Source of the DNA: Sipunculus nudus
Taxonomy: Eukaryota > Annelida > Sipuncula > Golfingiida > Sipunculidae
DNA length: 64,000 nucleotides
Assembly (NCBI GenBank): GCA_026874595.1
Contig: CM049306.1
Location: forward strand, 3,982,019-4,046,018
Reading direction: 5' to 3'
Below are positions 13,301 to 64,000 of this stretch, in pieces. How positions within the stretch are numbered: the stretch's first letter is position 1; each line of letters starts with the position of its first letter. The notes under the pieces were generated by a model. That model did no database searches. It saw nothing but the letters and a program-made list of their open reading frames with translations, and was not told where the DNA came from. Position numbers and translations under genes: made by a program.

Positions 13301-13800
13301 CACCTACCTCTTTATGCTTCAGTATTAGTTTGTGGCCAAAGTAGATAAGACACCTACCTCTTTATGCTTCAGTATTAGTATGTGGCCAAAGTAGATAAGA
13401 CACCTACCTATTTATGCTTCAGTATTAGTTTGTGGCCAAAGTAGATAAGACACCTACCTCTTAATGCTTCAGTATTAGTTTGTGGCCAAAGTAGATAAGA
13501 CACCTACCTATTTATGCTTCAGTATTAGTTTGCGGCCAAAGTAGATAAGACACCTACCTCTTAATGCTTCAGTACTTAGTATGTGTCAAAAGCTTATAAG
13601 CCACCTACCTGTTTATGCTTCAGTATTAGTTTGTTGCCAAAGTAGATAAGACACCTATATATTTATGCTTCAGGATTGGTTTGTGGCCAAAGTAGATAAG
13701 ACATCTACCTATTTATGATTCAGTATTAGTTTCTGGCCAAAGTAGATAAGACACCTACCTCTTTATGCTTCAGTATTAGTTTGCGGCCACAGTAGATAAG
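10301..13800. repeat. Satellite array, subtype 2, upstream of the first LINE copy
   Basis: The CTTAGTACGTGG 51-bp class disappears. Typical variants are CAGTATAAG with AAGAAACC, TTTGCGGCCACAG, GTGTGTGGCC, TTTATACTTCAG, and an AAGCTT-bearing monomer at 10838, 11738, 13139 and 13590. The block 10.30-11.0 kb recurs at 12.60-13.3 kb at an offset of 2301 bp. The last three monomers before 13801 are the diverged flank shared by all LINE copies. No gene. Confidence 0.93.
10838..12637. repeat. Tandem duplication of 18 monomers (900 bp)
   Basis: The AAGCTTATAAGCC monomer at 10838 recurs at 11738, exactly 900 bp later. All private variants between them recur in order: TTAGGCTTC, TTTGTGCTTC, GATAGGACACC, CAGTTTTAG and GTGTCAG. 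At 11.70-11.74 kb the AAGCTT monomer is a hybrid: its first half reads CTTCATGCTTCAGTATTAG instead of CTTAATGCTTCAGTACTTAG. That marks the exchange point. Confidence 0.9.
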
Positions 13801-13833
13801 GGATATGATGATATGATATGATATGATATGATA
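13801..13833 (-). repeat. LINE 3' pentanucleotide microsatellite tail
   Basis: On the plus strand this reads as GGATATGATG followed by ATATG units. On the element strand it is a TATCA/ATATC tail. CR1- and L2-type LINEs typically end in short tandem repeats rather than poly(A). Across the ten copies the tail is 33, 38, 43, 38, 38, 48, 38, 43, 48 and 38 nt, always in steps of 5. Confidence 0.85.
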
Positions 13834-13847
13834 GAGTTCATTTATAA

Positions 13848-13878
13848 AGCGCAAATATAATATACATTTCTATGCGCT
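13848..13878 (-). other. Inverted repeat in the LINE 3' UTR
   Basis: AGCGCA at 13848-13853 pairs with TGCGCT at 13873-13878 around a 19-nt AT-rich loop that contains further weaker pairing. It lies between the stop codon and the microsatellite tail. A stem-loop near the 3' end that the RT recognises is known for several LINE clades, so this may be the old recognition hairpin. It is present in all ten copies (63895-63925 in the last). Confidence 0.6.
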
Positions 13879-13889
13879 GATACAAAGGT

Positions 13890-14367
13890 TTAAGAAAATA
13901 AGTATGTCTTGAGAGCACGCTTAAATGATTCAATATGTGTACACGCTCTAACAGAGTCTGGTAAAGAATTCCATGCGGTGGCAGCGTACTTGGAAAATTG
14001 TCTGTCACCATATACATTATGGGAGCGAGGTACACAGACTATCCTGTGAGCATCAGAAGAACGAAGAGACCTGCGGGGAGAATATTCCACAAACAGTTTG
14101 CGCAAATACAGTGGATACAGGCTATCATTCAGCGCTTTATACACCTGTGTGAGGACTTTAAATGTGATTCTCTTTTCGACAGGCAGCCAGTGAAGCTGTC
14201 TTAGAACAGGTCCAATGCTGTCGTACTTCCTGGACCTTGTAAGTAATCGGGCTGATGCGTTTTGTGCAAGTTGGAGGCGATGGATGTTAGCATTGGAAGT
14301 TCCAGTTAGCAGGCTGTTGTTGTTGTCCAATCTTGATGTAATCAGTGCGTTGATGGTCTTTGCAGCT
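13890..14367 (-). pseudogene. LINE reverse transcriptase ORF, C-terminal remnant (copy 1)
   Basis: About 158 codons are open from the truncation point to a TAA stop. Motifs in order: AKTINALITSRL at the start, matching the region after the RT core of CR1/L2 ORF2 proteins; RLQLAQNASARLL (~30-42); SIGPVLRQLHWLPV (~50-63); SPRRSLRSSD (~96-105); YGDRQFSKYAATAWNSLP (~119-136); ESFKRALKTYLFS at the end. This C-terminal region follows the RT domain in the family, and its function is poorly known. The catalytic YxDD motif and endonuclease are absent. There is no ATG in frame: the apparent start at 14330 is TTG, and an upstream in-frame stop lies in the adjacent satellite. It is therefore a fossil fragment. 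The unbroken frame more likely reflects recent copying than selection. Confidence 0.87.
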
Positions 14368-14419
14368 GATAAGACACCTACCTATTTATGCTTCAGTATT
14401 AGTTTGTGGCCAAAGTAGA

Positions 14420-28934: not shown

Positions 28935-29506
28935 GGATATGATGATATGATATGATATGATATGATATGATAGAGTTCATTTATAAAGCGCAAATATAAT
29001 ATACATTTCTATGCGCTGATACAAAGGGTTAAGAAAATAAGTATGTCTTGAGAGCACGCTTAAATGATTCAATATGTGTACACGCTCTAACAGATTCTGG
29101 TAAAGAATTCCATGCGGTGGCAGCGTACTTGGAAAATTGTCTGTCACCATATACATTATGGGAGCGAGGTACACAGACTATCCTGTGAGCATCAGAAGAA
29201 CGAAGAGACCTGCGGGGAGAATATTCCACAAACAGTTTGCGCAAATACAGTGGATACAGGCTATCATTCAGCGCTTTATACACCTGTGTGAGGACTTTAA
29301 ATGTGATTCTCTTTTCGACAGGCAGCCAGTGAAGCTGTCTTAGAACAGGTCCAATGCTGTCGTACTTCCTGGACCTTGTAAGTAATCGGGCTGATGCGTT
29401 TTGTGCAAGTTGGAGGCGATGGATGTTAGCATTGGAAGTTCCAGTTAGCAGGCTGTTGTTGTTGTCCAATCTTGATGTAATCAGTGCGTTGATGATCTTT
29501 GCAGCT
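28935..29506 (-). mobile_element. LINE fragment, copy 2 (type A junction)
   Basis: A 572-bp insert between GATAAG at 28929-28934 and 29507-29512, with a 38-nt tail. Private changes are AGATTCTGG near the C-terminal end of the frame (Glu instead of Asp) and GATGATC near the 5' truncation. The first insert base after GATAAG is G. The downstream array matches copy 1 for at least 700 bp. Confidence 0.88.
29029..29506 (-). pseudogene. LINE reverse transcriptase C-terminal remnant (copy 2)
   Basis: The frame is open for ~158 codons to TAA at 29029-29031, with the same motif order as copy 1. The one coding difference I see in the C-terminal half is NSLPES for NSLPDS. There is no ATG and no catalytic core. 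It is a dead fragment carried by the satellite. Confidence 0.86.
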
Positions 29507-34113: not shown

Positions 34114-34690
34114 GGATATGATGATATGATATGATATGATATGATATGATATGATAGAGTTCATTTATAAAGCGCAAATATAATATACATTTCTATGCGC
34201 TGATACAAAGGGTTAAGAAAATAAGTATGTCTTGAGAGCACGCTTAAATGATTCAATATGTGTACACGCTCTAACAGAGTCTGGTAAAGAATTCCATGCG
34301 GTGGCAGCGTACTTGGAAAATTGTCTGTCACCATATACATTATGGGAGCGAGGTACACAGACTATCCTGTGAGCATCAGAAGAACGAAGAGACCTGCGGG
34401 GAGAATATTCCACAAACAGTTTGCGCAAATACAGTGGATACAGGCTATCATTCAGCGCTTTATACACCTGTGTGAGGACTTTAAATGTGATTCTCTTTTC
34501 GACAGGCAGCCAGTGAAGCTGTCTTAGAACAGGTCCAATGCTGTCGTACTTCCTGGACCTTGTAAGTAATCGGGCTGATGCGTTTTGTGCAAGTTGGAGG
34601 CGATGGATGTTAGCATTGGAAGTTCCAGTTAGCAGGCTGTTGTTGTTGTCCAATCTTGATGTAATCAGTGCGTTGATGGTCTTTGCAGCT
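34114..34690 (-). mobile_element. LINE fragment, copy 3 (type A junction)
   Basis: A 577-bp insert between GATAAG at 34108-34113 and 34691-34696, with a 43-nt tail like copy 8. The upstream flank has the private CTTCATAATTGG in place of CTTCAGGATTGG. One monomer is missing downstream compared with copies 6, 8 and 9. Confidence 0.88.
34213..34690 (-). pseudogene. LINE reverse transcriptase C-terminal remnant (copy 3)
   Basis: Open for ~158 codons to TAA at 34213-34215. The protein is identical to the majority version in copies 4, 5, 7 and 8, and it has no ATG in frame. Identical frames across most copies point to recent duplication. Confidence 0.86.
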
Positions 34691-40555: not shown

Positions 40556-41127
40556 TGATATGATGATATGATATGATATGATATGATATGATAGAGTTCA
40601 TTTATAAAGCGCAAATATAATATACATTTCTATGCGCTGATACAAAGGGTTAAGAAAATAAGTATGTCTTGAGAGCACGCTTAAATGATTCAATATGTGT
40701 ACACGCTCTAACAGAGTCTGGTAAAGAATTCCATGCGGTGGCAGCGTACTTGGAAAATTGTCTGTCACCATATACATTATGGGAGCGAGGTACACAGACT
40801 ATCCTGTGAGCATCAGAAGAACGAAGAGACCTGCGGGGAGAATATTCCACAAACAGTTTGCGCAAATACAGTGGATACAGGCTATCATTCAGCGCTTTAT
40901 ACACCTGTGTGAGGACTTTAAATGTGATTCTCTTTTCGACAGGCAGCCAGTGAAGCTGTCTTAGAACAGGTCCAATGCTGTCGTACTTCCTGGACCTTGT
41001 AAGTAATCGGGCTGATGCGTTTTGTGCAAGTTGGAGGCGATGGATGTTAGCATTGGAAGTTCCAGTTAGCAGGCTGTTGTTGTTGTCCAATCTTGATGTA
41101 ATCAGTGCGTTGATGGTCTTTGCAGCT
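40556..41127 (-). mobile_element. LINE fragment, copy 5 (type B junction)
   Basis: A 572-bp insert between GATAAG at 40550-40555 and 41128-41133, type B, with a 38-nt tail. Its upstream flank reads CATCTACTTATTTATG near 40458 and lacks the GATATCTACC change of the other type B copies. It therefore branched before that change or was converted. Confidence 0.88.
40650..41127 (-). pseudogene. LINE reverse transcriptase C-terminal remnant (copy 5)
   Basis: Open for ~158 codons to TAA at 40650-40652, majority protein version, no ATG. Confidence 0.86.
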
Positions 41128-44100
41128 GATAAGACACCTACCTATTTATGCTTCAGTATTATTTTGTGACCAAAGTAGATAAGACACCTACCTCTTTATG
41201 CTTCAGTATTAGTTTGTGGCCAAAGTAGATACACCTACCTATTCATGCTTCAGTATTAGTTTGTGGCCAAACTAGATAAGACACCTACCTCTTTATGCTT
41301 CAGTATTAGTATGTGGCCAAAGTAGATAAGACACCTACCTCTTTATGCTTCAGTATTAGTTTGTGGCCAAAGTAGATAAGACACCTACCTCTTTATGCTT
41401 CAGTATTAATTTGTGACCAAAGTAGATAAGACACCTACCTCTTTATGCTTCAGTATTAGTTTGTGACCAAAGTAGATAAGACACTTACCTCTTTATGCTT
41501 CAGTATTAGTTTGTTGCCAAAGTAGATAAGAAACCTACCTCTTTATGCTTCAGTATTAGTCTGTGGCCAAAGTAGATACACCTACCTATTTATGCTTCAG
41601 TTTTAGTATGTGGCCAAAGTAGATAAGACACCTACCTCTTTATGCTTCAGTATTAGTTTGTGGCCAAAGTAGATAAGACACCTACCTCTTTATGCTTCAG
41701 TATTAGTCTGTGGCCAAAGTAGATACACCTACCTCTTTATGCTTCAGTATTAGTATGTGGCCAAAGTAGATAAGACACCTACCTCTTTATGCTTCAGTAT
41801 TAGTCTGTGGCCAAAGTAGATACACCTACCTATTTATGCTTCAGTATTAGTATGTGGCCAAAGTAGATAAGACACCTACCTCTTTATGCTTCAGTATTAG
41901 TTTGTGACCAAAGTAGATAAGACACCTAACTCTTTATGCTTCAGTATTAGTCTGTGGCCAAAGTAGATACACCTACCTCTTTATGCTTCAGTATTAGTAT
42001 GTGGCCAAAGTAGATAAAACACCTACCTCTTTATGCTTCAGTATTAGTTTGTGGCCAAAGTAGATACACCTACCTATTCATGCTTCAGTATTAGTTTGTT
42101 GCCAAAGTAGATAAGACACCTACCTATTTATGCTTCAGTATTAGTCTGTGGCCAAAGTAGATAAGACACCTACCTATTTATGCTTCAGTATTAGTCTGTG
42201 GCCAAAGTAGATAAGACACCTACCTCTTTATGCTTCAGTATTAGTTTGTGACCAAAGTAGATAAGACACCTACCTCTTTATGCTTCAGTATTAGTTTGTG
42301 GCCAAAGAAGATAAGACACCTACCTATTTATGCTTCAGTATTAGTTTGTGGCCAAAGTAGATAAGACACCTACCTCTTTATGCTTCAGTATTAGTACGAG
42401 GCCAAAGTAGATAAGACACCTACCTATTTATGCTTCAGTATTAGTACGTGGCCAAAGTAGATAAGACACCTACCTATTTATGCTTCAGTATTAGTACGTG
42501 GCCAAAGTAGATAAGACACCTACCTGTTTGTGCTTCAGTATTAGTTTGTGGCCAAAGTAGATAAGACACCTACCTCTTTATGCTTCAGTATTAGTACGTG
42601 GCCAAAGTAGATAAGACACCTACCTATTTGTGCTTCAGTATTAGTTTGTGGCCAAAGTAGATAAGACACCTACATATTTATGCTTCAGTATTAGTTTGTG
42701 ACCAAAGTAGATAAGACACCTACCTCTTTATGCTTCAGTATTAGTTTGTGACCAAAGTAGATAAGACACCTACCTCTTAATGCTTCAGTATTAGTTTGTG
42801 GCCAAAGTAGATAAGACACCTATTTCTTTATGCTCCAGTATTAGTTTGTGGCCAAAGTAGATAAGACACCTACCTCTTTATGCTTCAGTATTATTTTGTG
42901 ACCAAAGTAGATAAGACACCTCCCTCTTTATGCTTCAGTATTAGTTTGTGGCCAAAGTAGATAAGACACCTATTTCTTTATGCTTCAGTATTAGTTTGTG
43001 GCCAAAGTAGATAAGACACCTACCTCTTTATGCTTCAGTATTATTTTGTGACCAAAGTAGATAAGACACCTCCCTCTTTATGCTTCAGTATTAGTTTGTG
43101 GCCAAAGTAGATAAGACACCTACCTCTTTATGCTTCAGTATTAGTATGTGGCCAAAGTAGATAAGACACCTACATATTTATGCTTCAGTATTAGTTTGTG
43201 GCCAAAGTAGATAAGACACCTACCTATTTATGCTTCAGTATTATTACGTGGCCAAAGTAGATAAGACACCTACCTCTTTATGCTTAAGTATTAGTACGTG
43301 GCGAAAGTAGATAAGACACCTACCTCTTTATGCTTCAGTATTAATTTGTGACCAAAGTAGATAAGACACCTACCTCTTTATGCTTCAGTATTAGTTTGTG
43401 ACCAAAGTAGATAAGACATCTACCTCTTTATGCTTCATTATTAGTATTTGGCCAAAGTAGATAAGACACTTACCTCTTTATGCTTCAGTATTAGTTTGTG
43501 GCCAAAGTAGATAAGACACCTACCTCTTTATGCTTCAGTATTAGTCTGTGGCCAAAGTAGATACACCTACCTATTTATGCTTCAGTTTTAGTATGTGGCC
43601 AAAGTAGATAAGACACCTACCTCTTTATGCTTCAGTATTAGTTTGTGGCCAAAGTAGATAAGACACCTACCTCTTTATGCTTCAGTATTAGTCTGTGGCC
43701 AAAGTAGATACACCTACCTCTTTATGCTTCAGTATTAGTATGTGGCCAAAGTAGATAAGACACCTACCTCTTTATGCTTCAGTATTAGTCTGTGGCCAAA
43801 GTAGATACACCTACCTATTTATGCTTCAGTATTAGTATGTGGCCAAAGTAGATAAGACACCTACCTCTTTATGCTTCAGTATTAGTTTGTGACCAAAGTA
43901 GATAAGACACCTAACTCTTTATGCTTCAGTATTAGTCTGTGGCCAAAGTAGATACACCTACCTCTTTATGCTTCAGTATTAGTATGTGGCCAAAGTAGAT
44001 AAAACACCTACCTCTTTATGCATCAGTATTAGTTTGTGGCCAAAGTAGATACACCTACCTATTCATGCTTCAGTATTAGTTTGTTGCCAAAGTAGATAAG

Positions 44101-47001
44101 ACACCTACCTATTTATGCTTCAGTATTAATCTGTGGCCAAAGTAGATAAGACACCTACCTATTTATGCTTCAGTATTAGTCTGTGGCCAAAGTAGATAAG
44201 ACACCTACCTCTTTATGCTTCAGTATTAGTTTGTGACCAAAGTAGATAAGACACCTACCTCTTTATGCTTCAGTATTAGTTTGTGGCCAAAGAAGATAAG
44301 ACACCTACCTATTTATGCTTCAGTATTAGTTTGTGGCCAAAGTAGATAAGACACCTACCTCTTTATGCTTCAGTATTAGTACGAGGCCAAAGTAGATAAG
44401 ACACCTACCTATTTATGCTTCAGTATTAGTACGTGGCCAAAGTAGATAAGACACCTACCTATTTATGCTTCAGTATTAGTACGTGGCCAAAGTAGATAAG
44501 ACACCTACCTGTTTGTGCTTCAGTATTAGTTTGTGGCCAAAGTAGATAAGACACCTACCTCTTTATGCTTCAGTATTAGTACGTGGCCAAAGTAGATAAG
44601 ACACCTACCTATTTGTGCTTCAGTATTAGTTTGTGGCCAAAGTAGATAAGACACCTACATATTTATGCTTCAGTATTAGTTTGTGACCAAAGTAGATAAG
44701 ACACCTACCTCTTTATGCTTCAGTATTAGTTTGTGACCAAAGTAGATAAGACACCTACCTCTTAATGCTTCAGTATTAGTTTGTGGCCAAAGTAGATAAG
44801 ACACCTATTTCTTTATGCTCCAGTATTAGTTTGTGGCCAAAGTAGATAAGACACCTACCTCTTTATGCTTCAGTATTATTTTGTGACCAAAGTAGATAAG
44901 ACACCTACCTCTTTATGCTTCAGTATTAGTTTGTGACCAAAGTAGATAAGACACCTACCTCTTTATGCTTCAGTATTAGTTTGTGGCCAAAGTAGATAAG
45001 ACACCTACCTATTTATTCTTCAGTATTAGTTTGTGGCCAAAGTAGATAAGACACCTATTTCTTTATGCTTCAGTATTAGTTTGTTGCCAAAGTAGATAAA
45101 ACACCTACATAGTTATGCTTCTGTATTAGTTTGTGGCCAAAGTAGATAAGACATCTACTTCTTTATGCTTCAGTATTAGTTTGTGGCCAAAGAAGATAAG
45201 ACACCTACTTCTTTATGCTTCAGTATTAGTTTGTGGCCAAAGCAGATAAGACACCTACCTATTTATGCTTCAGTATTAGTTTGTGGCCAAAGTAGATAAG
45301 ACATCTACTTCTTAATGCTTCAGTATTAGTTTGTGGCCAAAGTAGATAAGACACCTACCTCTTTATGCTTCAGTATACGTTTGTGGCCAAAGTAGATAAG
45401 AAACCTACCTCTTTATGCTTCAGTATTAGTTTGTGGCCAAAGTAGATAAGACACCTACCTCTTTATGCTTCAGTATTAGTTTGTGGCCAAAGTAGATAAG
45501 ACACCTACCTCTTTATGCTTCAGTATACGTTTGTGGCCAAAGTAGATAAGACACCTACCTCTTTATGATTCAGTATTAGTTTGTGGCCAAAGTAGATAAG
45601 ACACCTACCTCTTAATGCTTCATTATTAGTTTGTGGCCAAAGTAGATAAGACACCTACCTCTTTATGCTTCAGTATTAGTTTGTGGCCAAAGTAGATAAG
45701 ACACCTACCTCTTTATGCTTCAGTATTAGTTTGTGGCCAAAGTAGATAAGACATCTACTTCTTTATGCTTCAGTATTAGTTTGTGGCCAAAGTAGATAAG
45801 ACACCTACCTCTTTATGCTTCAGTATACGTTTGTGGCCAAAGTAGATAAGAAACATACCTCTTTATGCTTCAGTATTAGTTTGTGGCCAAAGTAGATAAG
45901 AAACATACCTCTTTATGCTTCAGTATTAGTTTGTGGCCAAAGTAGATAAGACACCTACCTCTTAATGCTTCAGTATTAGTTTGTGGCCAAAGTAGATAAG
46001 ACACCTACCTCTTTATGCTTCAGTATAAGTTTGTGGCCAAAGTAGATAAGACACCTACCTATTTATGCTTCAGTATTAGTTTGTGGCCAAAGTAGATAAG
46101 ACACCTACCTCTTAATGCTTCAGTATAAGTTTGTGGCCAAAGTAGATAAGAAACCTACCTCTTTATGCTTCAGTATTAGTTTGTGGTCAAAGTAGATAAG
46201 ACACCTACCTCTTTATGCTTCAGTATTAGTTTGTGGCCAAAGTAGATAAGACACCTACCTATTTATGCTTCAGTATTAGTATGTGGCCAAAGTAGATAAG
46301 ACACCTATTTCTTTATGCTTCAGTATTAGTTTGTTGCCAAAGTAGATAAAACACCTACATAGTTATGCTTCTGTATTAGTTTGTGGCCAAAGTAGATAAG
46401 ACACCTACCTCTTTATGCTTCAGTATAAGTTTGTGGCCAAAGTAGATAAGAAACCTACCTCTTTATGCTTCAGTATAAGTTTGTGACCAAAGTAGATAAG
46501 ACACCTACCTCTTTATGCTTCAGTATTAGTTTGTGGCCAAAGTAGATAAGACACCTACCTCTTTATGCTTCAGTATTAGTATGTGGCCAAAGTAGATAAG
46601 ACACCTACCTATTTATGCTTCAGTATTAGTTTGTGGCCAAAGTAGATAAGACACCTACCTATTTATGCTTCAGTATTAGTTTGTGGCCAAAGTAGATAAG
46701 ACACCTACCTTTTTATGCTTCAGTATTAGTTTGCGGCCAAAGTAGATAAGACACCTACCTCTTAATGCTTCAGTACTTAGTATGTGTCAAAAGCTTATAA
46801 GCCACCTACCTGTTTATGCTTCAGTATTAGTTTGTTGCCAAAGTAGATAAGACACCTATATATTTATGCTTCAGGATTGGTTTGTGGCCAAAGTAGATAA
46901 GACATCTACCTATTTATGATTCAGTATTAGTTTCTGGCCAAAGTAGATAAGACACCTACCTCTTTATGCTTCAGTATTAGTTTGCGGCCACAGTAGATAA
47001 G
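41128..47001. repeat. Satellite array between LINE copies 5 and 6
   Basis: About 5.9 kb, no gene. An internal tandem duplication has an offset of 1985 bp: CAGTTTTAG at 41598 and 43583, and TTAGTACGAGG at 42391 and 44376. It spans about 41.4-42.9 kb and 43.3-44.9 kb. The first copy has lost one monomer near 41.48 kb. Rare CTCCAG variants lie at 42834 and 44818. Confidence 0.94.
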
Positions 47002-47583
47002 GGATATGATGATATGATATGATATGATATGATATGATATGATATGATAGAGTTCATTTATAAAGCGCAAATATAATATACATTTCTATGCGCTGATACA
47101 AAGGGTTAAGAAAATAAGTATGTCTTGAGAGCACGCTTAAATGATTCAATATGTGTACACGCTCTAACAGAGTCTGGTAAAGAATTCCATGCGGTGGCAG
47201 CGTACTTGGAAAATTGTCTGTCACCATATACATTATGGGAGCGAGGTACACAGACTATCCTGTGAGCATCAGAAGAACGAAGAGACCTGCGGGGAGAATA
47301 TTCCACAAACAGTTTGCGCAAATACAGTGGATACAGGCTATCATTCAGCGCTTTATACACCTGTGTGAGGACTTTAAATGTGATTCTCTTTTCGACAGGC
47401 AGCCAGTGAAGCTGTCTTAGAACAGGTCCAATGCTGTCGTACTTCCTGGACCTTGTAAGTAATCGGGCTGATGCGTTTTGTGCAAGTTGGAGGCGATGGA
47501 TGTTAGCATTGGAAGTTCCAGTTAGCAGGCTGTTGTTGTTGTCCAATCTTGATGTAATCAGTGCGTTGAGGGTCTTTGCAGCT
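47002..47583 (-). mobile_element. LINE fragment, copy 6 (type A junction)
   Basis: A 582-bp insert between GATAAG at 46996-47001 and 47584-47589. The tail is 48 nt, the longest class and shared only with copy 9. A private GTTGAGGGTC replaces GTTGATGGTC near the truncation end, also shared only with copy 9. Confidence 0.88.
47106..47583 (-). pseudogene. LINE reverse transcriptase C-terminal remnant (copy 6)
   Basis: Open for ~158 codons to TAA at 47106-47108. The GAGGGTC change alters a residue in the first few codons after the truncation (AKT-L in place of AKT-I), upstream of the TTG. No ATG. Confidence 0.85.
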
Positions 47584-49637
47584 GATAAGACACCTACCTA
47601 TTTATGCTTCAGTATTAGTTTGTGGCCAAAGTAGATAAGACACCTACCTCTTTATGCTTCAGTATTAGTTTGTGGCCAAAGTAGATAAAACACCTACCTC
47701 TTTATGCTTCAGTATTAGTTTGTGGCCAAAGTAGATAAGACACCTACCTCTTTATGCTTCAGTATTAGTTTGTGGCCAAAGTAGATAAGACACCTACCTA
47801 TTTATGCTTCAGTATTAGTGTGTGGCCAAAGTAGATAAGACACCTACCTCTTTATACTTCAGTATTAGTTTGTGGCCAAAGTAGATAAGACACCTACCTC
47901 TTTAGGCTTCAGTATTAGTTTGTGGCCAAAGTAGATAAAACACCTACTTCTTTATGCTTCAGTATTAGTTTGTGGCCAAAGTAGATAAGACACCTTCCTA
48001 GTTATGCTTCAGTATTAGTCTGTGGCCAAAGTAGATAAGACACCTACCTATTTATGCTTCAATATTAGTCTGTGGCCAAAGTAGATAAGACACCTACCTC
48101 TTTATGCTTCAGTATTAGTTTGTGACCAAAGTATATAAGACACCTACCTCTTTATGCTTCAGTATTAATTTGTGGCCAAAGAAGATAAGACACCTACCTA
48201 TTTATGCTTCAGTATTAGTTTGTGGCCAAAGTAGATAAGACACCTACCTATTAATGCTTCAGTATTAGTTTGTGGCCAAAGTAGATAAGACGTCTACCTC
48301 TTTATGCTTCAGTATTAGTTTGTGGCCAAAGTAGATAAGACACCTTCCTCTTTATGCTTCAGTATTAGTTTGTGGCCAAAGTAGATGAGACACCTGCCTA
48401 TTTATGCTTCAGTATTAGTTTGTGGCCAAAGTAGATAAGACACCTACCTCTTTATGCTTCAGTATTAGTCTGTGGCCAAAGTAGATAAGACACCTACCTC
48501 TCTATGCTTCAGTATTAGTTTTTGGCCAAAGTAGATAAGACACCTACCTCTTTATGCTTCAGTATTAGTTTGTGGCCAAAGTAGATAAGACACCTACCTC
48601 TTTATGCTTCAGTATTAGTTTGTGACCAAAGTAGATAAGACACCTACCTCTTTATGCTTCAGTATTAGTTTGTGACCAAAGTAGATAAGACACCTAACTC
48701 TTTATGCTTCAGTATTAGTCTGTGGCCAAAGTAGATACACCTACCTCTTTATGCTTCAGTATTAGTATGTGGCCAAAGTAGATAAAACACCTACCTCTTT
48801 ATGCTTCAGTATTAGTTTGTGACCAAAGTAGATAAGACACCTACCTCTTTATGCTTCAGTATTAGTTTGTGGCCAAAGTAGATAAGACACCTACCTATTT
48901 ATGCTTCAGTATTAGTTTGTGGCCAAAGTAGATAAGACACCTATTTCTTTATGCTTCAGTATTAGTTTGTTGCCAAAGTAGATAAAACACCTACATAGTT
49001 ATGCTTCTGTATTAGTTTGTGGCCAAAGTAGATAAGACACCTACCTCTTTATGCTTCAGTATAAGTTTGTGGCCAAAGTAGATAAGAAACCTACCTCTTT
49101 ATGCTTCAGTATAAGTTTGTGACCAAAGTAGATAAGACACCTACCTCTTTATGCTTCAGTATTAGTTTGTGGCCAAAGTAGATAAGACACCTACCTCTTT
49201 ATGCTTCAGTATTAGTATGTGGCCAAAGTAGATAAGACACCTACCTATTTATGCTTCAGTATTAGTTTGTGGCCAAAGTAGATAAGACACCTACCTCTTA
49301 ATGCTTCAGTATTAGTTTGTGGCCAAAGTAGATAAGACACCTACCTATTTATGCTTCAGTATTAGTTTGCGGCCAAAGTAGATAAGACACCTACCTCTTA
49401 ATGCTTCAGTACTTAGTATGTGTCAAAAGCTTATAAGCCACCTACCTGTTTATGCTTCAGTATTAGTTTGTTGCCAAAGTAGATAAGACACCTATATATT
49501 TATGCTTCAGGATTGGTTTGTGGCCAAAGTAGATAAGATATCTACCTATTTATGATTCAGTATTAGTTTCTGGCCAAAGTAGATAAGACACCTACCTCTT
49601 TATGCTTCAGTATTAGTTTGCGGCCACAGTAGATAAG
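47584..49637. repeat. Satellite array between LINE copies 6 and 7
   Basis: About 2.05 kb, no gene. Same block as 34.7-36.7 kb plus one monomer, and the same as 61.8-63.8 kb at an offset of 14,207. Markers are ATTAATTTGTGGCC with AAAGAAG near 48.17 kb and GATGAGACACC near 48.38 kb. Confidence 0.95.
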
Positions 49638-50209
49638 TGATATGATGATATGATATGATATGATATGATATGATAGAGTTCATTTATAAAGCGCAAATAT
49701 AATATACATTTCTATGCGCTGATACAAAGGGTTAAGAAAATAAGTATGTCTTGAGAGCACGCTTAAATGATTCAATATGTGTACACGCTCTAACAGAGTC
49801 TGGTAAAGAATTCCATGCGGTGGCAGCGTACTTGGAAAATTGTCTGTCACCATATACATTATGGGAGCGAGGTACACAGACTATCCTGTGAGCATCAGAA
49901 GAACGAAGAGACCTGCGGGGAGAATATTCCACAAACAGTTTGCGCAAATACAGTGGATACAGGCTATCATTCAGCGCTTTATACACCTGTGTGAGGACTT
50001 TAAATGTGATTCTCTTTTCGACAGGCAGCCAGTGAAGCTGTCTTAGAACAGGTCCAATGCTGTCGTACTTCCTGGACCTTGTAAGTAATCGGGCTGATGC
50101 GTTTTGTGCAAGTTGGAGGCGATGGATGTTAGCATTGGAAGTTCCAGTTAGCAGGCTGTTGTTGTTGTCCAATCTTGATGTAATCAGTGCGTTGATGGTC
50201 TTTGCAGCT
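49638..50209 (-). mobile_element. LINE fragment, copy 7 (type B junction)
   Basis: A 572-bp insert between GATAAG at 49632-49637 and 50210-50215, type B first base T, with a 38-nt tail. The upstream flank has GATAAGATATCTACC near 49534. It is 2626 bp after copy 6. Copies 9 and 10 show the same spacing. Confidence 0.88.
49732..50209 (-). pseudogene. LINE reverse transcriptase C-terminal remnant (copy 7)
   Basis: Open for ~158 codons to TAA at 49732-49734, majority protein version, no ATG. Confidence 0.86.
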
Positions 50210-53200
50210 GATAAGACACCTACCTATTTATGCTTCAGTATTATTTTGTGACCAAAGTAGATAAGACACCTACCTCTTTATGCTTCAGTATTAGTTTGTG
50301 GCCAAAGTAGATACACCTACCTATTCATGCTTCAGTATTAGTTTGTGGCCAAACTAGATAAGACACCTACCTCTTTATGCTTCAGTATTAGTATGTGGCC
50401 AAAGTAGATAAGACACCTACCTCTTTATGCTTCAGTATTAGTTTGTGGCCAAAGTAGATAAGACACCTACCTCTTTATGCTTCAGTATTAATTTGTGACC
50501 AAAGTAGATAAGACACCTACCTCTTTATGCTTCAGTATTAGTTTGTGACCAAAGTAGATAAGACATCTACCTCTTTATGCTTCATTATTAGTATTTGGCC
50601 AAAGTAGATAAGACACTTACCTCTTTATGCTTCAGTATTAGTTTGTTGCCAAAGTAGATAAGACACCTACCTCTTTATGCTTCAGTATTAGTCTGTGGCC
50701 AAAGTAGATACACCTACCTATTTATGCTTCAGTTTTAGTATGTGGCCAAAGTAGATAAGACACCTACCTCTTTATGCTTCAGTATTAGTTTGTGGCCAAA
50801 GTAGATAAGACACCTACCTCTTTATGCTTCAGTATTAGTCTGTGGCCAAAGTAGATACACCTACCTCTTTATGCTTCAGTATTAGTATGTGGCCAAAGTA
50901 GATAAGACACCTACCTCTTTATGCTTCAGTATTAGTTTGTGGCCAAAGTAGATAAGACACCTACCTATTTATGCTTCAGTATTAGTGTGTGGCCAAAGTA
51001 GATAAGACACCTACCTCTTTATACTTCAGTATTAGTTTGTGGCCAAAGTATATAAGACACCTACCTCTTTAGGCTTCAGTATTAGTTTGTGGTCAAAGTA
51101 GATAAGACACCTACCTCTTTATGCTTCAGTATTAGTTTGTGACCAAAGTAGATAAGACACCTACCTCTTTATGCTTCAGTATTAGTTTGTGGCCAAAGTA
51201 GATAAGACACCTACCTATTTATGCTTCAGTATTAGTTTGTGGCCAAAGTAGATAAGACACCTATTTCTTTATGCTTCAGTATTAGTTTGTGGCCAAAGTA
51301 GATAAGACACCTACCTATTTATGCTTCAGTATTAGTGTGTGGCCAAAGTAGATAAGACACCTACCTCTTTATACTTCAGTATTAGTTTGTGGCCAAAGTA
51401 TATAAGACACCTACCTCTTTAGGCTTCAGTATTAGTTTGTGGTCAAAGTAGATAAGACACCTACCTCTTTATGCTTCAGTATTAGTTTGTGACCAAAGTA
51501 GATAAGACACCTACCTCTTTATGCTTCAGTATTAGTTTGTGGCCAAAGTAGATAAGACACCTACCTATTTATGCTTCAGTATTAGTTTGTGGCCAAAGTA
51601 GATAAGACACCTATTTCTTTATGCTTCAGTATTAGTTTGTTGCCAAAGTAGATAAAACACCTACATAGTTATGCTTCTGTATTAGTTTGTGGCCAAAGTA
51701 GATAAGACATCTACTTCTTTATGCTTCAGTATTAGTTTGTGGCCAAAGAAGATAAGACACCTACCTATTTATGCTTCAGTATTAGTTTGTGGCCAAAGCA
51801 GATAAGACACCTACCTATTTATGCTTCAGTATTAGTTTGTGGCCAAAGTAGATAAGACATCTACTTCTTAATGCTTCAGTATTAGTTTGTGGCCAAAGTA
51901 GATAAGACACCTACCTCTTTATGCTTCAGTATACGTTTGTGGCCAAAGTAGATAAGAAACCTACCTCTTTATGCTTCAGTATTAGTTTGTGGCCAAAGTA
52001 GATAAGACACCTACCTCTTTATGCTTCAGTATTAGTTTGTGGCCAAAGTAGATAAGACACCTACCTCTTTATGCTTCAGTATACGTTTGTGGCCAAAGTA
52101 GATAAGAAACCTACCTCTTTATGATTCAGTATTAGTTTGTGGCCAAAGTAGATAAGACACCTACCTCTTAATGCTTCATTATTAGTTTGTGGCCAAAGTA
52201 GATAAGACACCTACCTCTTTATGCTTCAGTATTAGTTTGTGGCCAAAGTAGATAAGACACCTACCTCTTTATGCTTCAGTATTAGTTTGTGGCCAAAGTA
52301 GATAAGACATCTACTTCTTTATGCTTCAGTATTAGTTTGTGGCCAAAGTAGATAAGACACCTACCTCTTTATGCTTCAGTATACGTTTGTGGCCAAAGTA
52401 GATAAGAAACATACCTCTTTATGCTTCAGTATTAGTTTGTGGCCAAAGTAGATAAGAAACATACCTCTTTATGCTTCAGTATTAGTTTGTGGCCAAAGTA
52501 GATAAGACACCTACCTCTTAATGCTTCAGTATTAGTTTGTGGCCAAAGTAGATAAGACACCTACCTCTTTATGCTTCAGTATAAGTTTGTGGCCAAAGTA
52601 GATAAGACACCTACCTATTTATGCTTCAGTATTAGTTTGTGGCCAAAGTAGATAAGACACCTACCTCTTAATGCTTCAGTATAAGTTTGTGGCCAAAGTA
52701 GATAAGAAACCTACCTCTTTATGCTTCAGTATTAGTTTGTGGTCAAAGTAGATAAGACACCTACCTCTTTATGCTTCAGTATTAGTTTGTGGCCAAAGTA
52801 GATAAGACACCTACCTATTTATGCTTCAGTATTAGTATGTGGCCAAAGTAGATAAGACACCTATTTTTTTATGCTTCAGTATTAGTTTGTTGCCAAAGTA
52901 GATAAAACACCTACATAGTTATGCTTCTGTATTAGTTTGTGGCCAAAGTAGATAAGACACCTACCTCTTTATGCTTCAGTATAAGTTTGTGGCCAAAGTA
53001 GATAAGAAACCTACCTCTTTATGCTTCAGTATAAGTTTGTGACCAAAGTAGATAAGACACCTACCTCTTTATGCTTCAGTATTAGTTTGTGGCCAAAGTA
53101 GATAAGACACCTACCTCTTTATGCTTCAGTATTAGTATGTGGCCAAAGTAGATAAGACACCTACCTATTTATGCTTCAGTATTAGTTTGTGGCCAAAGTA

Positions 53201-53557
53201 GATAAGACACCTACCTATTTATGCTTCAGTATTAGTTTGTGGCCAAAGTAGATAAGACACCTACCTTTTTATGCTTCAGTATTAGTTTGCGGCCAAAGTA
53301 GATAAGACACCTACCTCTTAATGCTTCAGTACTTAGTATGTGTCAAAAGCTTATAAGCCACCTACCTGTTTATGCTTCAGTATTAGTTTGTTGCCAAAGT
53401 AGATAAGACACCTATATATTTATGCTTCAGGATTGGTTTGTGGCCAAAGTAGATAAGACATCTACCTATTTATGATTCAGTATTAGTTTCTGGCCAAAGT
53501 AGATAAGACACCTACCTCTTTATGCTTCAGTATTAGTTTGCGGCCACAGTAGATAAG
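50210..53557. repeat. Satellite array between LINE copies 7 and 8
   Basis: About 3.3 kb, no gene. To ~50.93 kb it follows the order seen after copy 4 (37.27-37.98 kb). It then switches to the order found at 31.49 kb and keeps it to copy 8. The 350-bp pair lies at 51.05 and 51.40 kb, and the CTATTTTTTTATG monomer at ~52.86 kb. Confidence 0.95.
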
Positions 53558-54134
53558 GGATATGATGATATGATATGATATGATATGATATGATATGATA
53601 GAGTTCATTTATAAAGCGCAAATATAATATACATTTCTATGCGCTGATACAAAGGGTTAAGAAAATAAGTATGTCTTGAGAGCACGCTTAAATGATTCAA
53701 TATGTGTACACGCTCTAACAGAGTCTGGTAAAGAATTCCATGCGGTGGCAGCGTACTTGGAAAATTGTCTGTCACCATATACATTATGGGAGCGAGGTAC
53801 ACAGACTATCCTGTGAGCATCAGAAGAACGAAGAGACCTGCGGGGAGAATATTCCACAAACAGTTTGCGCAAATACAGTGGATACAGGCTATCATTCAGC
53901 GCTTTATACACCTGTGTGAGGACTTTAAATGTGATTCTCTTTTCGACAGGCAGCCAGTGAAGCTGTCTTAGAACAGGTCCAATGCTGTCGTACTTCCTGG
54001 ACCTTGTAAGTAATCGGGCTGATGCGTTTTGTGCAAGTTGGAGGCGATGGATGTTAGCATTGGAAGTTCCAGTTAGCAGGCTGTTGTTGTTGTCCAATCT
54101 TGATGTAATCAGTGCGTTGATGGTCTTTGCAGCT
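53558..54134 (-). mobile_element. LINE fragment, copy 8 (type A junction)
   Basis: A 577-bp insert between GATAAG at 53552-53557 and 54135-54140, with a 43-nt tail shared only with copy 3. It has GTTGATGGTC, the majority state. Confidence 0.88.
53657..54134 (-). pseudogene. LINE reverse transcriptase C-terminal remnant (copy 8)
   Basis: Open for ~158 codons to TAA at 53657-53659, majority protein version, no ATG. Confidence 0.86.
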
Positions 54135-57100
54135 GATAAGACACCTACCTATTTATGCTTCAGTATTAGTTTGTGGCCAAAGTAGATAAGACACCTACCT
54201 CTTTATGCTTCAGTATTAGTTTGTGGCCAAAGTAGATAAAACACCTACCTCTTTATGCTTCAGTATTAGTTTGTGGCCAAAGTAGATAAGACACCTACCT
54301 CTTTATGCTTCAGTATTAGTTTGTGGCCAAAGTAGATAAGACACCTACCTATTTATGCTTCAGTATTAGTGTGTGGCCAAAGTAGATAAGACACCTACCT
54401 CTTTATACTTCAGTATTAGTTTGTGGCCAAAGTAGATAAGACACCTACCTCTTTAGGCTTCAGTATTAGTTTGTGGCCAAAGTAGATAAAACACCTACTT
54501 CTTTATGCTTCAGTATTAGTTTGTGGCCAAAGTAGATAAGACACCTTCCTAGTTATGCTTCAGTATTAGTCTGTGGCCAAAGTAGATAAGACACCTACCT
54601 ATTTATGCTTCAATATTAGTCTGTGGCCAAAGTAGATAAGACACCTACCTCTTTATGCTTCAGTATTAGTTTGTGACCAAAGTATATAAGACACCTACCT
54701 CTTTATGCTTCAGTATTAGTTTGTGGCCAAAGAAGATAAGACACCTACCTATTTATGCTTCAGTATTAGTTTGTGGCCAAAGTAGATAAGACACCTACCT
54801 ATTAATGCTTCAGTATTAGTTTGTGGCCAAAGTAGATAAGACGTCTACCTCTTTATGCTTCAGTATTAGTTTGTGGCCAAAGTAGATAAGACACCTTCCT
54901 CTTTATGCTTCAGTATTAGTTTGTGGCCAAAGTAGATAAGACACCTGCCTATTTATGCTTCAGTATTAGTTTGTGGCCAAAGTAGATAAGACACCTACCT
55001 CTTTATGCTTCAGTATTAGTCTGTGGCCAAAGTAGATAAGACACCTACCTCTCTATGCTTCAGTATTAGTTTTTGGCCAAAGTAGATAAGACACCTACCT
55101 CTTTATGCTTCAGTATTAGTTTGTGGCCAAAGTAGATAAGACACCTACCTCTTTATGCTTCAGTATTAGTTTGTGACCAAAGTAGATAAGACACCTACCT
55201 CTTTATGCTTCAGTATTAGTTTGTGACCAAAGTAGATAAGACACCTAACTCTTTATGCTTCAGTATTAGTCTGTGGCCAAAGTAGATACACCTACCTCTT
55301 TATGCTTCAGTATTAGTATGTGGCCAAAGTAGATAAAACACCTACCTCTTTATGCTTCAGTATTAGTTTGTGACCAAAGTAGATAAGACACCTACCTCTT
55401 TATGCTTCAGTATTAGTTTGTGGCCAAAGTAGATAAGACACCTACCTATTTATGCTTCAGTATTAGTTTGTGGCCAAAGTAGATAAGACACCTATTTCTT
55501 TATGCTTCAGTATTAGTATGTGGCCAAAGTAGATAAGACACCTACCTCTTTATGCTTCAGTATTAGTTTGTGGCCAAAGTAGATAAGACACCTACCTCTT
55601 TATGCTTCAGTATTAATTTGTGACCAAAGTAGATAAGACACCTACCTCTTTATGCTTCAGTATTAGTTTGTGACCAAAGTAGATAAGACACTTACCTCTT
55701 TATGCTTCAGTATTAGTTTGTTGCCAAAGTAGATAAGAAACCTACCTCTTTATGCTTCAGTATTAGTCTGTGGCCAAAGTAGATACACCTACCTATTTAT
55801 GCTTCAGTTTTAGTATGTGGCCAAAGTAGATAAGACACCTACCTCTTTATGCTTCAGTATTAGTTTGTGGCCAAAGTAGATAAGACACCTACCTCTTTAT
55901 GCTTCAGTATTAGTCTGTGGCCAAAGTAGATACACCTACCTCTTTATGCTTCAGTATTAGTATGTGGCCAAAGTAGATAAGACACCTACCTCTTTATGCT
56001 TCAGTATTAGTCTGTGGCCAAAGTAGATACACCTACCTATTTATGCTTCAGTATTAGTATGTGGCCAAAGTAGATAAGACACCTACCTCTTTATGCTTCA
56101 GTATTAGTTTGTGACCAAAGTAGATAAGACACCTAACTCTTTATGCTTCAGTATTAGTCTGTGGCCAAAGTAGATACACCTACCTCTTTATGCTTCAGTA
56201 TTAGTATGTGGCCAAAGTAGATAAAACACCTACCTCTTTATGCTTCAGTATTAGTTTGTGGCCAAAGTAGATACACCTACCTATTCATGCTTCAGTATTA
56301 GTTTGTTGCCAAAGTAGATAAGACACCTACCTATTTATGCTTCAGTATTAGTCTGTGGCCAAAGTAGATAAGACACCTACCTATTTATGCTTCAGTATTA
56401 GTCTGTGGCCAAAGTAGATAAGACACCTACCTCTTTATGCTTCAGTATTAGTTTGTGACCAAAGTAGATAAGACACCTACCTCTTTATGCTTCAGTATTA
56501 GTTTGTGGCCAAAGAAGATAAGACACCTACCTATTTATGCTTCAGTATTAGTTTGTGGCCAAAGTAGATAAGACACCTACCTCTTTATGCTTCAGTATTA
56601 GTACGAGGCCAAAGTAGATAAGACACCTACCTATTTATGCTTCAGTATTAGTACGTGGCCAAAGTAGATAAGACACCTACCTATTTATGCTTCAGTATTA
56701 GTACGTGGCCAAAGTAGATAAGACACCTACCTGTTTGTGCTTCAGTATTAGTTTGTGGCCAAAGTAGATAAGACACCTACCTCTTTATGCTTCAGTATTA
56801 GTACGTGGCCAAAGTAGATAAGACACCTACCTATTTGTGCTTCAGTATTAGTTTGTGGCCAAAGTAGATAAGACACCTACATATTTATGCTTCAGTATTA
56901 GTTTGTGACCAAAGTAGATAAGACACCTACCTCTTTATGCTTCAGTATTAGTTTGTGACCAAAGTAGATAAGACACCTACCTCTTAATGCTTCAGTATTA
57001 GTTTGTGGCCAAAGTAGATAAGACACCTATTTCTTTATGCTCCAGTATTAGTTTGTGGCCAAAGTAGATAAGACACCTACCTCTTTATGCTTCAGTATTA

Positions 57101-60100: not shown

Positions 60101-61208
60101 AGATAAGAAACATACCTCTTTATGCTTCAGTATTAGTTTGTGGCCAAAGTAGATAAGACACCTACCTCTTAATGCTTCAGTATTAGTTTGTGGCCAAAGT
60201 AGATAAGACACCTACCTCTTTATGCTTCAGTATAAGTTTGTGGCCAAAGTAGATAAGACACCTACCTATTTATGCTTCAGTATTAGTTTGTGGCCAAAGT
60301 AGATAAGACACCTACCTCTTAATGCTTCAGTATAAGTTTGTGGCCAAAGTAGATAAGAAACCTACCTCTTTATGCTTCAGTATTAGTTTGTGGTCAAAGT
60401 AGATAAGACACCTACCTCTTTATGCTTCAGTATTAGTTTGTGGCCAAAGTAGATAAGACACCTACCTATTTATGCTTCAGTATTAGTATGTGGCCAAAGT
60501 AGATAAGACACCTATTTCTTTATGCTTCAGTATTAGTTTGTTGCCAAAGTAGATAAAACACCTACATAGTTATGCTTCTGTATTAGTTTGTGGCCAAAGT
60601 AGATAAGACACCTACCTCTTTATGCTTCAGTATAAGTTTGTGGCCAAAGTAGATAAGAAACCTACCTCTTTATGCTTCAGTATAAGTTTGTGACCAAAGT
60701 AGATAAGACACCTACCTCTTTATGCTTCAGTATTAGTTTGTGGCCAAAGTAGATAAGACACCTACCTCTTTATGCTTCAGTATTAGTATGTGGCCAAAGT
60801 AGATAAGACACCTACCTATTTATGCTTCAGTATTAGTTTGTGGCCAAAGTAGATAAGACACCTACCTATTTATGCTTCAGTATTAGTTTGTGGCCAAAGT
60901 AGATAAGACACCTACCTTTTTATGCTTCAGTATTAGTTTGCGGCCAAAGTAGATAAGACACCTACCTCTTAATGCTTCAGTACTTAGTATGTGTCAAAAG
61001 CTTATAAGCCACCTACCTGTTTATGCTTCAGTATTAGTTTGTTGCCAAAGTAGATAAGACACCTATATATTTATGCTTCAGGATTGGTTTGTGGCCAAAG
61101 TAGATAAGACATCTACCTATTTATGATTCAGTATTAGTTTCTGGCCAAAGTAGATAAGACACCTACCTCTTTATGCTTCAGTATTAGTTTGCGGCCACAG
61201 TAGATAAG
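54135..61208. repeat. Satellite array between LINE copies 8 and 9
   Basis: About 7.1 kb, no gene. To ~55.5 kb it follows the post-LINE order of copies 3 and 6. From ~55.51 kb it equals 41.30-47.0 kb at an offset of 14,207, including the internal 1985-bp duplication (55.7-59.1 kb). The switch happens inside one hybrid monomer. Confidence 0.94.
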
Positions 61209-61790
61209 GGATATGATGATATGATATGATATGATATGATATGATATGATATGATAGAGTTCATTTATAAAGCGCAAATATAATATACATTTCTATGCGC
61301 TGATACAAAGGGTTAAGAAAATAAGTATGTCTTGAGAGCACGCTTAAATGATTCAATATGTGTACACGCTCTAACAGAGTCTGGTAAAGAATTCCATGCG
61401 GTGGCAGCGTACTTGGAAAATTGTCTGTCACCATATACATTATGGGAGCGAGGTACACAGACTATCCTGTGAGCATCAGAAGAACGAAGAGACCTGCGGG
61501 GAGAATATTCCACAAACAGTTTGCGCAAATACAGTGGATACAGGCTATCATTCAGCGCTTTATACACCTGTGTGAGGACTTTAAATGTGATTCTCTTTTC
61601 GACAGGCAGCCAGTGAAGCTGTCTTAGAACAGGTCCAATGCTGTCGTACTTCCTGGACCTTGTAAGTAATCGGGCTGATGCGTTTTGTGCAAGTTGGAGG
61701 CGATGGATGTTAGCATTGGAAGTTCCAGTTAGCAGGCTGTTGTTGTTGTCCAATCTTGATGTAATCAGTGCGTTGAGGGTCTTTGCAGCT
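61209..61790 (-). mobile_element. LINE fragment, copy 9 (type A junction)
   Basis: A 582-bp insert between GATAAG at 61203-61208 and 61791-61796. It shares the 48-nt tail and GTTGAGGGTC with copy 6, as expected for its 14.2-kb duplicate. Confidence 0.88.
61313..61790 (-). pseudogene. LINE reverse transcriptase C-terminal remnant (copy 9)
   Basis: Open for ~158 codons to TAA at 61313-61315. It has the same near-truncation change as copy 6. No ATG. Confidence 0.85.
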
Positions 61791-63844
61791 GATAAGACAC
61801 CTACCTATTTATGCTTCAGTATTAGTTTGTGGCCAAAGTAGATAAGACACCTACCTCTTTATGCTTCAGTATTAGTTTGTGGCCAAAGTAGATAAAACAC
61901 CTACCTCTTTATGCTTCAGTATTAGTTTGTGGCCAAAGTAGATAAGACACCTACCTCTTTATGCTTCAGTATTAGTTTGTGGCCAAAGTAGATAAGACAC
62001 CTACCTATTTATGCTTCAGTATTAGTGTGTGGCCAAAGTAGATAAGACACCTACCTCTTTATACTTCAGTATTAGTTTGTGGCCAAAGTAGATAAGACAC
62101 CTACCTCTTTAGGCTTCAGTATTAGTTTGTGGCCAAAGTAGATAAAACACCTACTTCTTTATGCTTCAGTATTAGTTTGTGGCCAAAGTAGATAAGACAC
62201 CTTCCTAGTTATGCTTCAGTATTAGTCTGTGGCCAAAGTAGATAAGACACCTACCTATTTATGCTTCAATATTAGTCTGTGGCCAAAGTAGATAAGACAC
62301 CTACCTCTTTATGCTTCAGTATTAGTTTGTGACCAAAGTATATAAGACACCTACCTCTTTATGCTTCAGTATTAATTTGTGGCCAAAGAAGATAAGACAC
62401 CTACCTATTTATGCTTCAGTATTAGTTTGTGGCCAAAGTAGATAAGACACCTACCTATTAATGCTTCAGTATTAGTTTGTGGCCAAAGTAGATAAGACGT
62501 CTACCTCTTTATGCTTCAGTATTAGTTTGTGGCCAAAGTAGATAAGACACCTTCCTCTTTATGCTTCAGTATTAGTTTGTGGCCAAAGTAGATGAGACAC
62601 CTGCCTATTTATGCTTCAGTATTAGTTTGTGGCCAAAGTAGATAAGACACCTACCTCTTTATGCTTCAGTATTAGTCTGTGGCCAAAGTAGATAAGACAC
62701 CTACCTCTCTATGCTTCAGTATTAGTTTTTGGCCAAAGTAGATAAGACACCTACCTCTTTATGCTTCAGTATTAGTTTGTGGCCAAAGTAGATAAGACAC
62801 CTACCTCTTTATGCTTCAGTATTAGTTTGTGACCAAAGTAGATAAGACACCTACCTCTTTATGCTTCAGTATTAGTTTGTGACCAAAGTAGATAAGACAC
62901 CTAACTCTTTATGCTTCAGTATTAGTCTGTGGCCAAAGTAGATACACCTACCTCTTTATGCTTCAGTATTAGTATGTGGCCAAAGTAGATAAAACACCTA
63001 CCTCTTTATGCTTCAGTATTAGTTTGTGACCAAAGTAGATAAGACACCTACCTCTTTATGCTTCAGTATTAGTTTGTGGCCAAAGTAGATAAGACACCTA
63101 CCTATTTATGCTTCAGTATTAGTTTGTGGCCAAAGTAGATAAGACACCTATTTCTTTATGCTTCAGTATTAGTTTGTTGCCAAAGTAGATAAAACACCTA
63201 CATAGTTATGCTTCTGTATTAGTTTGTGGCCAAAGTAGATAAGACACCTACCTCTTTATGCTTCAGTATAAGTTTGTGGCCAAAGTAGATAAGAAACCTA
63301 CCTCTTTATGCTTCAGTATAAGTTTGTGACCAAAGTAGATAAGACACCTACCTCTTTATGCTTCAGTATTAGTTTGTGGCCAAAGTAGATAAGACACCTA
63401 CCTCTTTATGCTTCAGTATTAGTATGTGGCCAAAGTAGATAAGACACCTACCTATTTATGCTTCAGTATTAGTTTGTGGCCAAAGTAGATAAGACACCTA
63501 CCTCTTAATGCTTCAGTATTAGTTTGTGGCCAAAGTAGATAAGACACCTACCTATTTATGCTTCAGTATTAGTTTGCGGCCAAAGTAGATAAGACACCTA
63601 CCTCTTAATGCTTCAGTACTTAGTATGTGTCAAAAGCTTATAAGCCACCTACCTGTTTATGCTTCAGTATTAGTTTGTTGCCAAAGTAGATAAGACACCT
63701 ATATATTTATGCTTCAGGATTGGTTTGTGGCCAAAGTAGATAAGATATCTACCTATTTATGATTCAGTATTAGTTTCTGGCCAAAGTAGATAAGACACCT
63801 ACCTCTTTATGCTTCAGTATTAGTTTGCGGCCACAGTAGATAAG
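61791..63844. repeat. Satellite array between LINE copies 9 and 10
   Basis: About 2.05 kb, no gene. Equals 47.58-49.64 kb at an offset of 14,207, with ATTAATTTGTGGCC near 62.37 kb, GATGAGACACC near 62.59 kb and AAGCTT at 63634. Confidence 0.95.
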
Positions 63845-64000
63845 TGATATGATGATATGATATGATATGATATGATATGATAGAGTTCATTTATAAAGCG
63901 CAAATATAATATACATTTCTATGCGCTGATACAAAGGGTTAAGAAAATAAGTATGTCTTGAGAGCACGCTTAAATGATTCAATATGTGTACACGCTCTAA
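63845..64000 (-). mobile_element. LINE fragment, copy 10 (type B junction, cut by window end)
   Basis: The left junction follows GATAAG at 63839-63844 and has the type B first base T. The tail is 38 nt. Only the tail, 3' UTR and the last ~20 codons (stop at 63939-63941) are visible. It lies 2626 bp after copy 9 and pairs with copy 7. Confidence 0.87.
63939..64000 (-). pseudogene. LINE reverse transcriptase C-terminal remnant (copy 10, partial)
   Basis: Only the last ~20 codons and the TAA stop are inside the window. They match the other copies. Confidence 0.8.

Follow-up and report, generated by a model that had tools for sequence, protein, structure and literature searches.

The stretch of DNA considered here, a window of 64,000 nucleotides from the genome assembly of the sipunculan annelid Sipunculus nudus (GenBank GCA_026874595.1; 1.43 Gb in 153 contigs), covers positions 3,982,019 to 4,046,018 of contig CM049306.1 and lies wholly within a single array of a 50-bp satellite, which is interrupted at intervals by the end of a long interspersed nuclear element (LINE). 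This contig, 110.9 Mb in length, is designated C1 in the coordinates below, so that the window corresponds to C1:3,982,019-4,046,018; the haplotype class of similar name is always written as class C1. The array begins approximately 3.9 Mb from the start of the contig and is gapless, with 0 N (undetermined bases) across the 232 kb that cover the array and its edges. When the complete array was checked, its interruptions of at least 30 bp were found to consist of 18 LINE inserts and nothing else, of which eight lie just beyond the window and ten touch it, nine of the latter lying in it completely and the tenth being cut off at its end. The satellite and the inserts within the window (window positions; the classes are explained further below) are as follows.

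1-64000, + strand: 50-bp satellite array, part of the 228-kb array C1:3,897,379-4,125,646; Tandem Repeats Finder period 50 over 1-63844
13801-14367, - strand: LINE insert copy 1, class A, 567 bp, with GATAAG at 13795-13800 and 14368-14373
28935-29506, - strand: LINE insert copy 2, class A, 572 bp
34114-34690, - strand: LINE insert copy 3, class B, 577 bp
36695-37266, - strand: LINE insert copy 4, class C1, 572 bp
40556-41127, - strand: LINE insert copy 5, class C2, 572 bp
47002-47583, - strand: LINE insert copy 6, class B, 582 bp
49638-50209, - strand: LINE insert copy 7, class C1, 572 bp
53558-54134, - strand: LINE insert copy 8, class B, 577 bp
61209-61790, - strand: LINE insert copy 9, class B, 582 bp
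63845-64000, - strand: LINE insert copy 10, class C1, cut by the window end and extending to C1:4,046,434

The 18 inserts occupy the central 78 kb of the array (C1:3,995,819-4,073,744), are all antisense to the + strand and measure 567-582 bp, differing in length solely by their microsatellite tail (32, 37, 42 or 47 bp). Their 535-bp body is the same in 14 of the 18 copies and contains four variable sites, with a nucleotide diversity (pi) of 0.00101. The original prediction had described ten copies in the window with a common truncation point, orientation, flanking GATAAG and an AAGCTT 211 bp upstream; this description is confirmed and can be extended to the whole set, since all 18 inserts have GATAAG on either side and an AAGCTT that begins exactly 211 bp before them. 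The first of these marks, to which an equivalent exists before each of the 18 inserts, is located as follows.

13590-13595, + strand: AAGCTT variant monomer, 211 bp upstream of insert 1

Eight more AAGCTT sites in the central array (26 in total, C1:3,992,856-4,072,962) have no LINE 211 bp downstream, and thus AAGCTT is a linked variant and not a LINE-specific mark; three additional sites are found at or beyond the right array edge. Ungapped similarity of the left flank extends over at least 600 bp in every pair of the 18 inserts, while similarity of the right flank between haplotype classes stops after approximately 50-60 bp. Genome-wide searches for the two LINE-satellite junctions, allowing at most 2 mismatches, gave the same result at each: 18 forward, 0 reverse and 0 control matches for the right junction (22-base pattern; all at C1:3,996,375-4,073,755) and likewise 18, 0 and 0 for the left junction (26-base pattern), all of them in the array.

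With respect to the satellite itself, a 33-base monomer pattern allowed at most 3 mismatches is matched 3,906 times in forward and 0 times in reverse orientation across the genome, and 3,906 matches are counted in the 232-kb array region. Thus, at this stringency, the satellite is a single-locus array in the assembly with all monomer matches in one orientation, more diverged relatives being possible elsewhere because monomers with more than 3 mismatches escape the count. With a 300-bp satellite query, for which the best 40 of 143 candidates were scored, the matches listed all belonged to this array. The array cannot be called featureless, as had been proposed, in that it contains ordered monomer variants. 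Copy numbers and arrangement as given throughout are those of a single assembly. At the left array end (C1:3,898,262-3,904,222) a LINE-free regular pattern is observed, in which variant monomers repeat every ~855 bp.

The inserted piece represents the end of a reading frame with its stop; a short 3' end comes next, and then an ATATC-type tail. A Pfam scan of the 159-residue C-terminal piece encoded by the insert gave no match, and the family was recognised through a near-identical dispersed copy on contig C4, in which the frame of the adjoining 5' part contains RVT_1 (E 4.5e-27) and Exo_endo_phos (E 9.3e-11). This copy (L048, C4:34,883,900-34,888,460) is the closest dispersed relative among the 19 compared, with 1 of 535 positions differing from the array body; its endonuclease and reverse transcriptase domains belong to an open stretch that is 906 residues long and reaches the end of the piece examined, from which it follows that the LINE family has probably been active recently. 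Its organisation and tail suggest a member of the CR1/L2-like group, which we presume it to be. The dispersed copies are a sample, given that the best 40 of 166 candidates were scored, 18 of these being in the array and 22 elsewhere, with 19 of the latter compared. Each of them has 1-6 differences from the array body in 535 positions (0.2-1.1%; a 2-base gap in one of them, L023, is scored as two differences), and the 19 differ among themselves by 0.83% on average, values that are biased low because the sample was drawn from the best matches. The family is therefore young, and only the inserted fragment need be dead; the earlier designation as a dead retrotransposon end holds for the truncated fragment but is overstated for a family of which one dispersed copy retains a long endonuclease-reverse transcriptase frame.

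Comparison of the array inserts with these relatives bears directly on the number of insertions. At body position 382 one base is invariant in all 18 array copies and absent from all 19 dispersed copies. In each of the latter the sequence runs 5' past the truncation point of the array copies (longer 5' extensions having been examined for 4 of the 19), the 3' flanks are different, and no satellite occurs within the 4 kb examined around them. Different truncation points in the same monomer phase, which had been named beforehand as the sign of repeated insertion, were thus not encountered, as none of the 19 dispersed copies is in satellite or has the array truncation, and the complete array holds no further insert of this LINE family. 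As a separate observation, a family copy situated ~1.4 Mb past the array (L022, C1:5,519,480-5,523,520) lies outside the satellite and extends 5' beyond the array truncation point.

The target of the insertion can also be recognised in its unoccupied state. When the flanks of inserts 1-3 were joined (50 + 50 bp, GATAAG counted once) and searched for within 144 kb, two sites with 0 mismatches were recovered, both of them in the window and to the left of the LINE domain.

11099-11198, + strand: empty target site 1, 100-bp joined flanks, 0 mismatches, single GATAAG
11999-12098, + strand: empty target site 2, 100-bp joined flanks, 0 mismatches

The next best four sites in these 144 kb, each with 1 mismatch, are found to the right of the domain. 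Within the 232 kb, 34 monomers show the target variant GCGGCCACAG: 18 of them carry an insert and 16 are unoccupied, 3 of the latter lying left of the LINE domain and 13 right of it. Since the truncation point, the junctions, the diagnostic base and the flanking variants are common to all 18 copies and empty targets persist, a single insertion followed by amplification, as originally predicted, is strongly supported.

The target duplication requires more careful reading. GATAAG occurs 1,052 times in the window against ~1,270 repeat lengths, i.e. in most monomers, and for this reason the flanking GATAAG pair is by itself weak evidence of duplication; support comes from the empty-site comparison, in which GATAAG is seen once. 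The duplication measures 5 or 6 bp because the truncation point is ambiguous by one base, the next LINE base also being G. It was considered that the GATAAG pair might be an artefact of a GATAAG-rich monomer, or that the duplication might comprise 56 bp (a monomer plus 6 bp); both are disfavoured relative to 5-6 bp, because three positions distinguish the two monomers that adjoin the insert (inserts 1-3) and the joined flanks match empty sites exactly.

The subsequent amplification has left an ordered record. On the basis of variants in the insert and near flank, copies 1 and 2 form class A, copies 3, 6, 8, 9, 11, 14 and 16 class B, copies 4, 7, 10, 12, 15 and 17 class C1, and copies 5, 13 and 18 class C2, so that from copy 1 to copy 18 the classes succeed one another as A A B C1 C2 B C1 B B C1 B C1 C2 B C1 B C1 C2. 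The 17 intervals between inserts range from 1,279 to 15,134 bp and reveal no constant unit length; nevertheless, particular class transitions recur with similar spacing. The interval from class B to class C1 is 2,481-2,781 bp in 6 of 6 cases, that from class C1 to class C2 is 3,861-3,911 bp (3/3) and that from class C2 to class B is 6,446 bp (2/2), while class B to class B measures 7,651 bp, class C1 to class B measures 3,920, 3,920 and 1,279 bp, and the intervals that start with class A are 15,134 and 5,179 bp. A super-unit of ~13 kb (B-C1-C2) is complete three times amid this irregular pattern. The claim of a fixed module of a higher-order repeat is accordingly borne out in part, for the class order does recur and includes the super-unit, but the spacing (1.3-15.1 kb) is irregular. 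The longest duplication found starts in the right part of the window.

41222-55638, + strand: first copy of the 14.2-kb tandem duplication, containing inserts 6-8; the second copy, with inserts 9-11, runs from 55,429 past the window end

Its period is 14,207 and its two copies differ at 20 of 14,417 positions (0.139%). Long, near-identical duplications are likewise present in LINE-free parts of the array. The length of the ATATC tail (32, 37, 42 or 47 bp) was observed to track the haplotype classes, so that the tail acts here as a slow marker and not as a fast microsatellite.

Taken together, these data are best accounted for by one insertion and exchange-driven copying. A 5'-truncated LINE, comprising its last 535 bp and a short ATATC microsatellite tail, would have inserted once, presumably through target-primed reverse transcription, in antisense orientation into a monomer of the GCGGCCACAG variant, leaving GATAAG as a target duplication of 5-6 bp. 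Copying of the occupied segment with its neighbours would then have proceeded at several scales through unequal exchange, either sister or homologous and possibly accompanied by gene conversion, in steps of ~2.6, 3.9 and 6.4 kb, as the ~13-kb three-insert super-unit and as a recent 14.2-kb tandem duplication, the outcome being 18 copies in 78 kb of one array (17 additional copies). Recurring intervals and block duplications are what repeated unequal exchange, acting at several scales, would be expected to leave behind. Because LINE-free satellite amplifies in nearly the same way, the LINE fragment would be a passenger, passive in the process and useful as a marker; the suggestion that it had been domesticated is not supported, there being no sign of function and the LINE-free array duplicating in a similar manner. 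We consider this whole account highly probable.

Several points weigh against it. To the right of the inserts, the first 50 bp are far more diverse than the body, with a pi of 0.023, and therefore monomer exchange is needed besides simple copying. Unequal crossing-over, conversion and re-insertion of circular DNA are all compatible with the copying pattern and are not distinguished by it. No clear duplication was seen by eye at the ends of three dispersed, apparently 5'-truncated family copies, so that duplication of 6 bp need not be habitual in this LINE family. An empty relative at C1:3,990,959 fits better when one right-hand monomer is skipped (3 versus 4 mismatches per 200), and over 411 bp the empty and filled sites compared within 144 kb differ by at least 19 mismatches; as the long flanks of empty sites differ in this way from those of filled ones, the precise site of origin has either been reshuffled or lost.

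Among other explanations, it could be supposed that the LINE favours a motif of the satellite monomer and that the copies stem from many targeted insertions. The monomer phase is indeed the same at all sites, and a real precedent exists in the L1-CS LINEs on CUS-TR24 monomers of Cuscuta europaea, described in PMC8091179. According to the same source, however, the Cuscuta inserts are heterogeneous and without a conserved common arrangement, whereas all 18 copies here have an identical 5' truncation and near-identical sequence, every insert pair is alike over at least 600 bp of left flank, the diagnostic base is common to them, and no second truncation or phase occurs in the whole array, which makes repeated targeting extremely improbable. 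It might also be objected that an assembly error has inflated the copy number or arranged the copies, given that satellite arrays are difficult to assemble. This is very unlikely for an array that is gapless (0 N in 232 kb), in which individual copies have private changes and tail lengths that follow their class, and where even the longest duplication contains 20 differences.

A further possibility is that the LINE fragment, being a longer block of non-satellite sequence, has not been passive and has been the driving force behind the expansion of the central domain, either by promoting register-correct exchange or by marking the active recombination centre. Attention is drawn here to copy 15 (C1:4,065,502-4,066,073, beyond the window), which combines a left side of class C1 with a different right side and is separated from the next insert by 1,279 bp. 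It looks like a recombinant with a switch inside the insert or at most 34 bp to its right, and this one copy is responsible for a four-gamete violation; replacement of the right-hand monomer would equally give the same pattern. The body is also less diverse than the 211 bp upstream (0.00101 versus a pi of 0.00468), and 1-kb windows with a partner of at least 99.5% identity in the array are somewhat commoner in the LINE domain (56/77) than in the LINE-free left (64/98) and right (32/51) sides, in a comparison from which windows straddling domain edges were dropped and to which no significance test was applied. On the other hand, this difference is small, the LINE-free parts hold long near-identical duplications of their own, a single recombinant copy is not a hotspot, and monomer swapping can raise flank diversity, all of which leaves an active role of the fragment unlikely. 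A specific form of the idea is that the fragment serves as a recombination anchor: since a 570-bp block cannot pair out of register within a 50-bp repeat, exchanges might pair at the inserts, and the inserted domain might turn over in 2.6-14-kb steps. If this were true, the insert would shape the higher-order structure, with large steps replacing small monomer slippage, although we regard it as similarly doubtful. One insertion, copied together with its surroundings as a passenger, thus remains the preferred explanation.

Comparable situations have been described in other organisms. In human alpha-satellite higher-order arrays, for example D2Z1 of chromosome 2, L1HS insertions or duplications number approximately three per array on average and vary among people (PMC12350169), whereas here, in a single assembly, 18 copies are present in one array that spans 228 kb and is built of a 50-bp satellite. 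In the same work, unique Alu insertions serve to follow duplications of the Yq12 satellite (PMC12350169), which is alike in that a retroelement insertion acts as the marker that exposes tandem duplication in a satellite, but different in element, satellite and organism and in that the marker itself has here been multiplied to 18 copies. A single LINE insertion is mentioned for human cenX in PMC8336445. The compound satellite Sobo of Solanum bulbocastanum, as described in PMC8091179, also joins part of a retrotransposon with a tandem repeat and co-amplifies them; Sobo has, however, one homogenised 4.7-kb monomer, while in S. nudus inserts are irregularly spaced at 1.3-15.1 kb in an otherwise short-monomer array. 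The Cuscuta europaea study sets targeted LINE insertion, which it prefers for its own material, against compound amplification, for which Sobo is cited (PMC8091179); LINEs are interspersed in satellite in both systems, but insertions of L1-CS in CUS-TR24 are targeted, recurrent and heterogeneous, in contrast to the one insertion copied here. A search of the open-licence literature by general words, not by sequence, yielded nothing recognisable as this satellite, which cannot show that the satellite is unpublished.

In conclusion, the array belongs with the duplicated-insertion kind, i.e. a single transposable element insertion duplicated by satellite expansion, and the use of such duplicated insertions as tracers of satellite growth has already been described and is in practice for human satellites (PMC12350169). 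The original prediction that the insert provides a datable marker applies here in relative terms, and no further than that. Being unique, oriented and shared, the insert deprives the satellite of its symmetry. It thereby allows an order to be established among copies, empty sites and haplotype classes, and exchange breakpoints, which are normally masked by short near-identical monomers, to be located. With its 18 marked and 16 unmarked target monomers, this gapless single-locus array of S. nudus lends itself to a clean test of models of how satellites grow.

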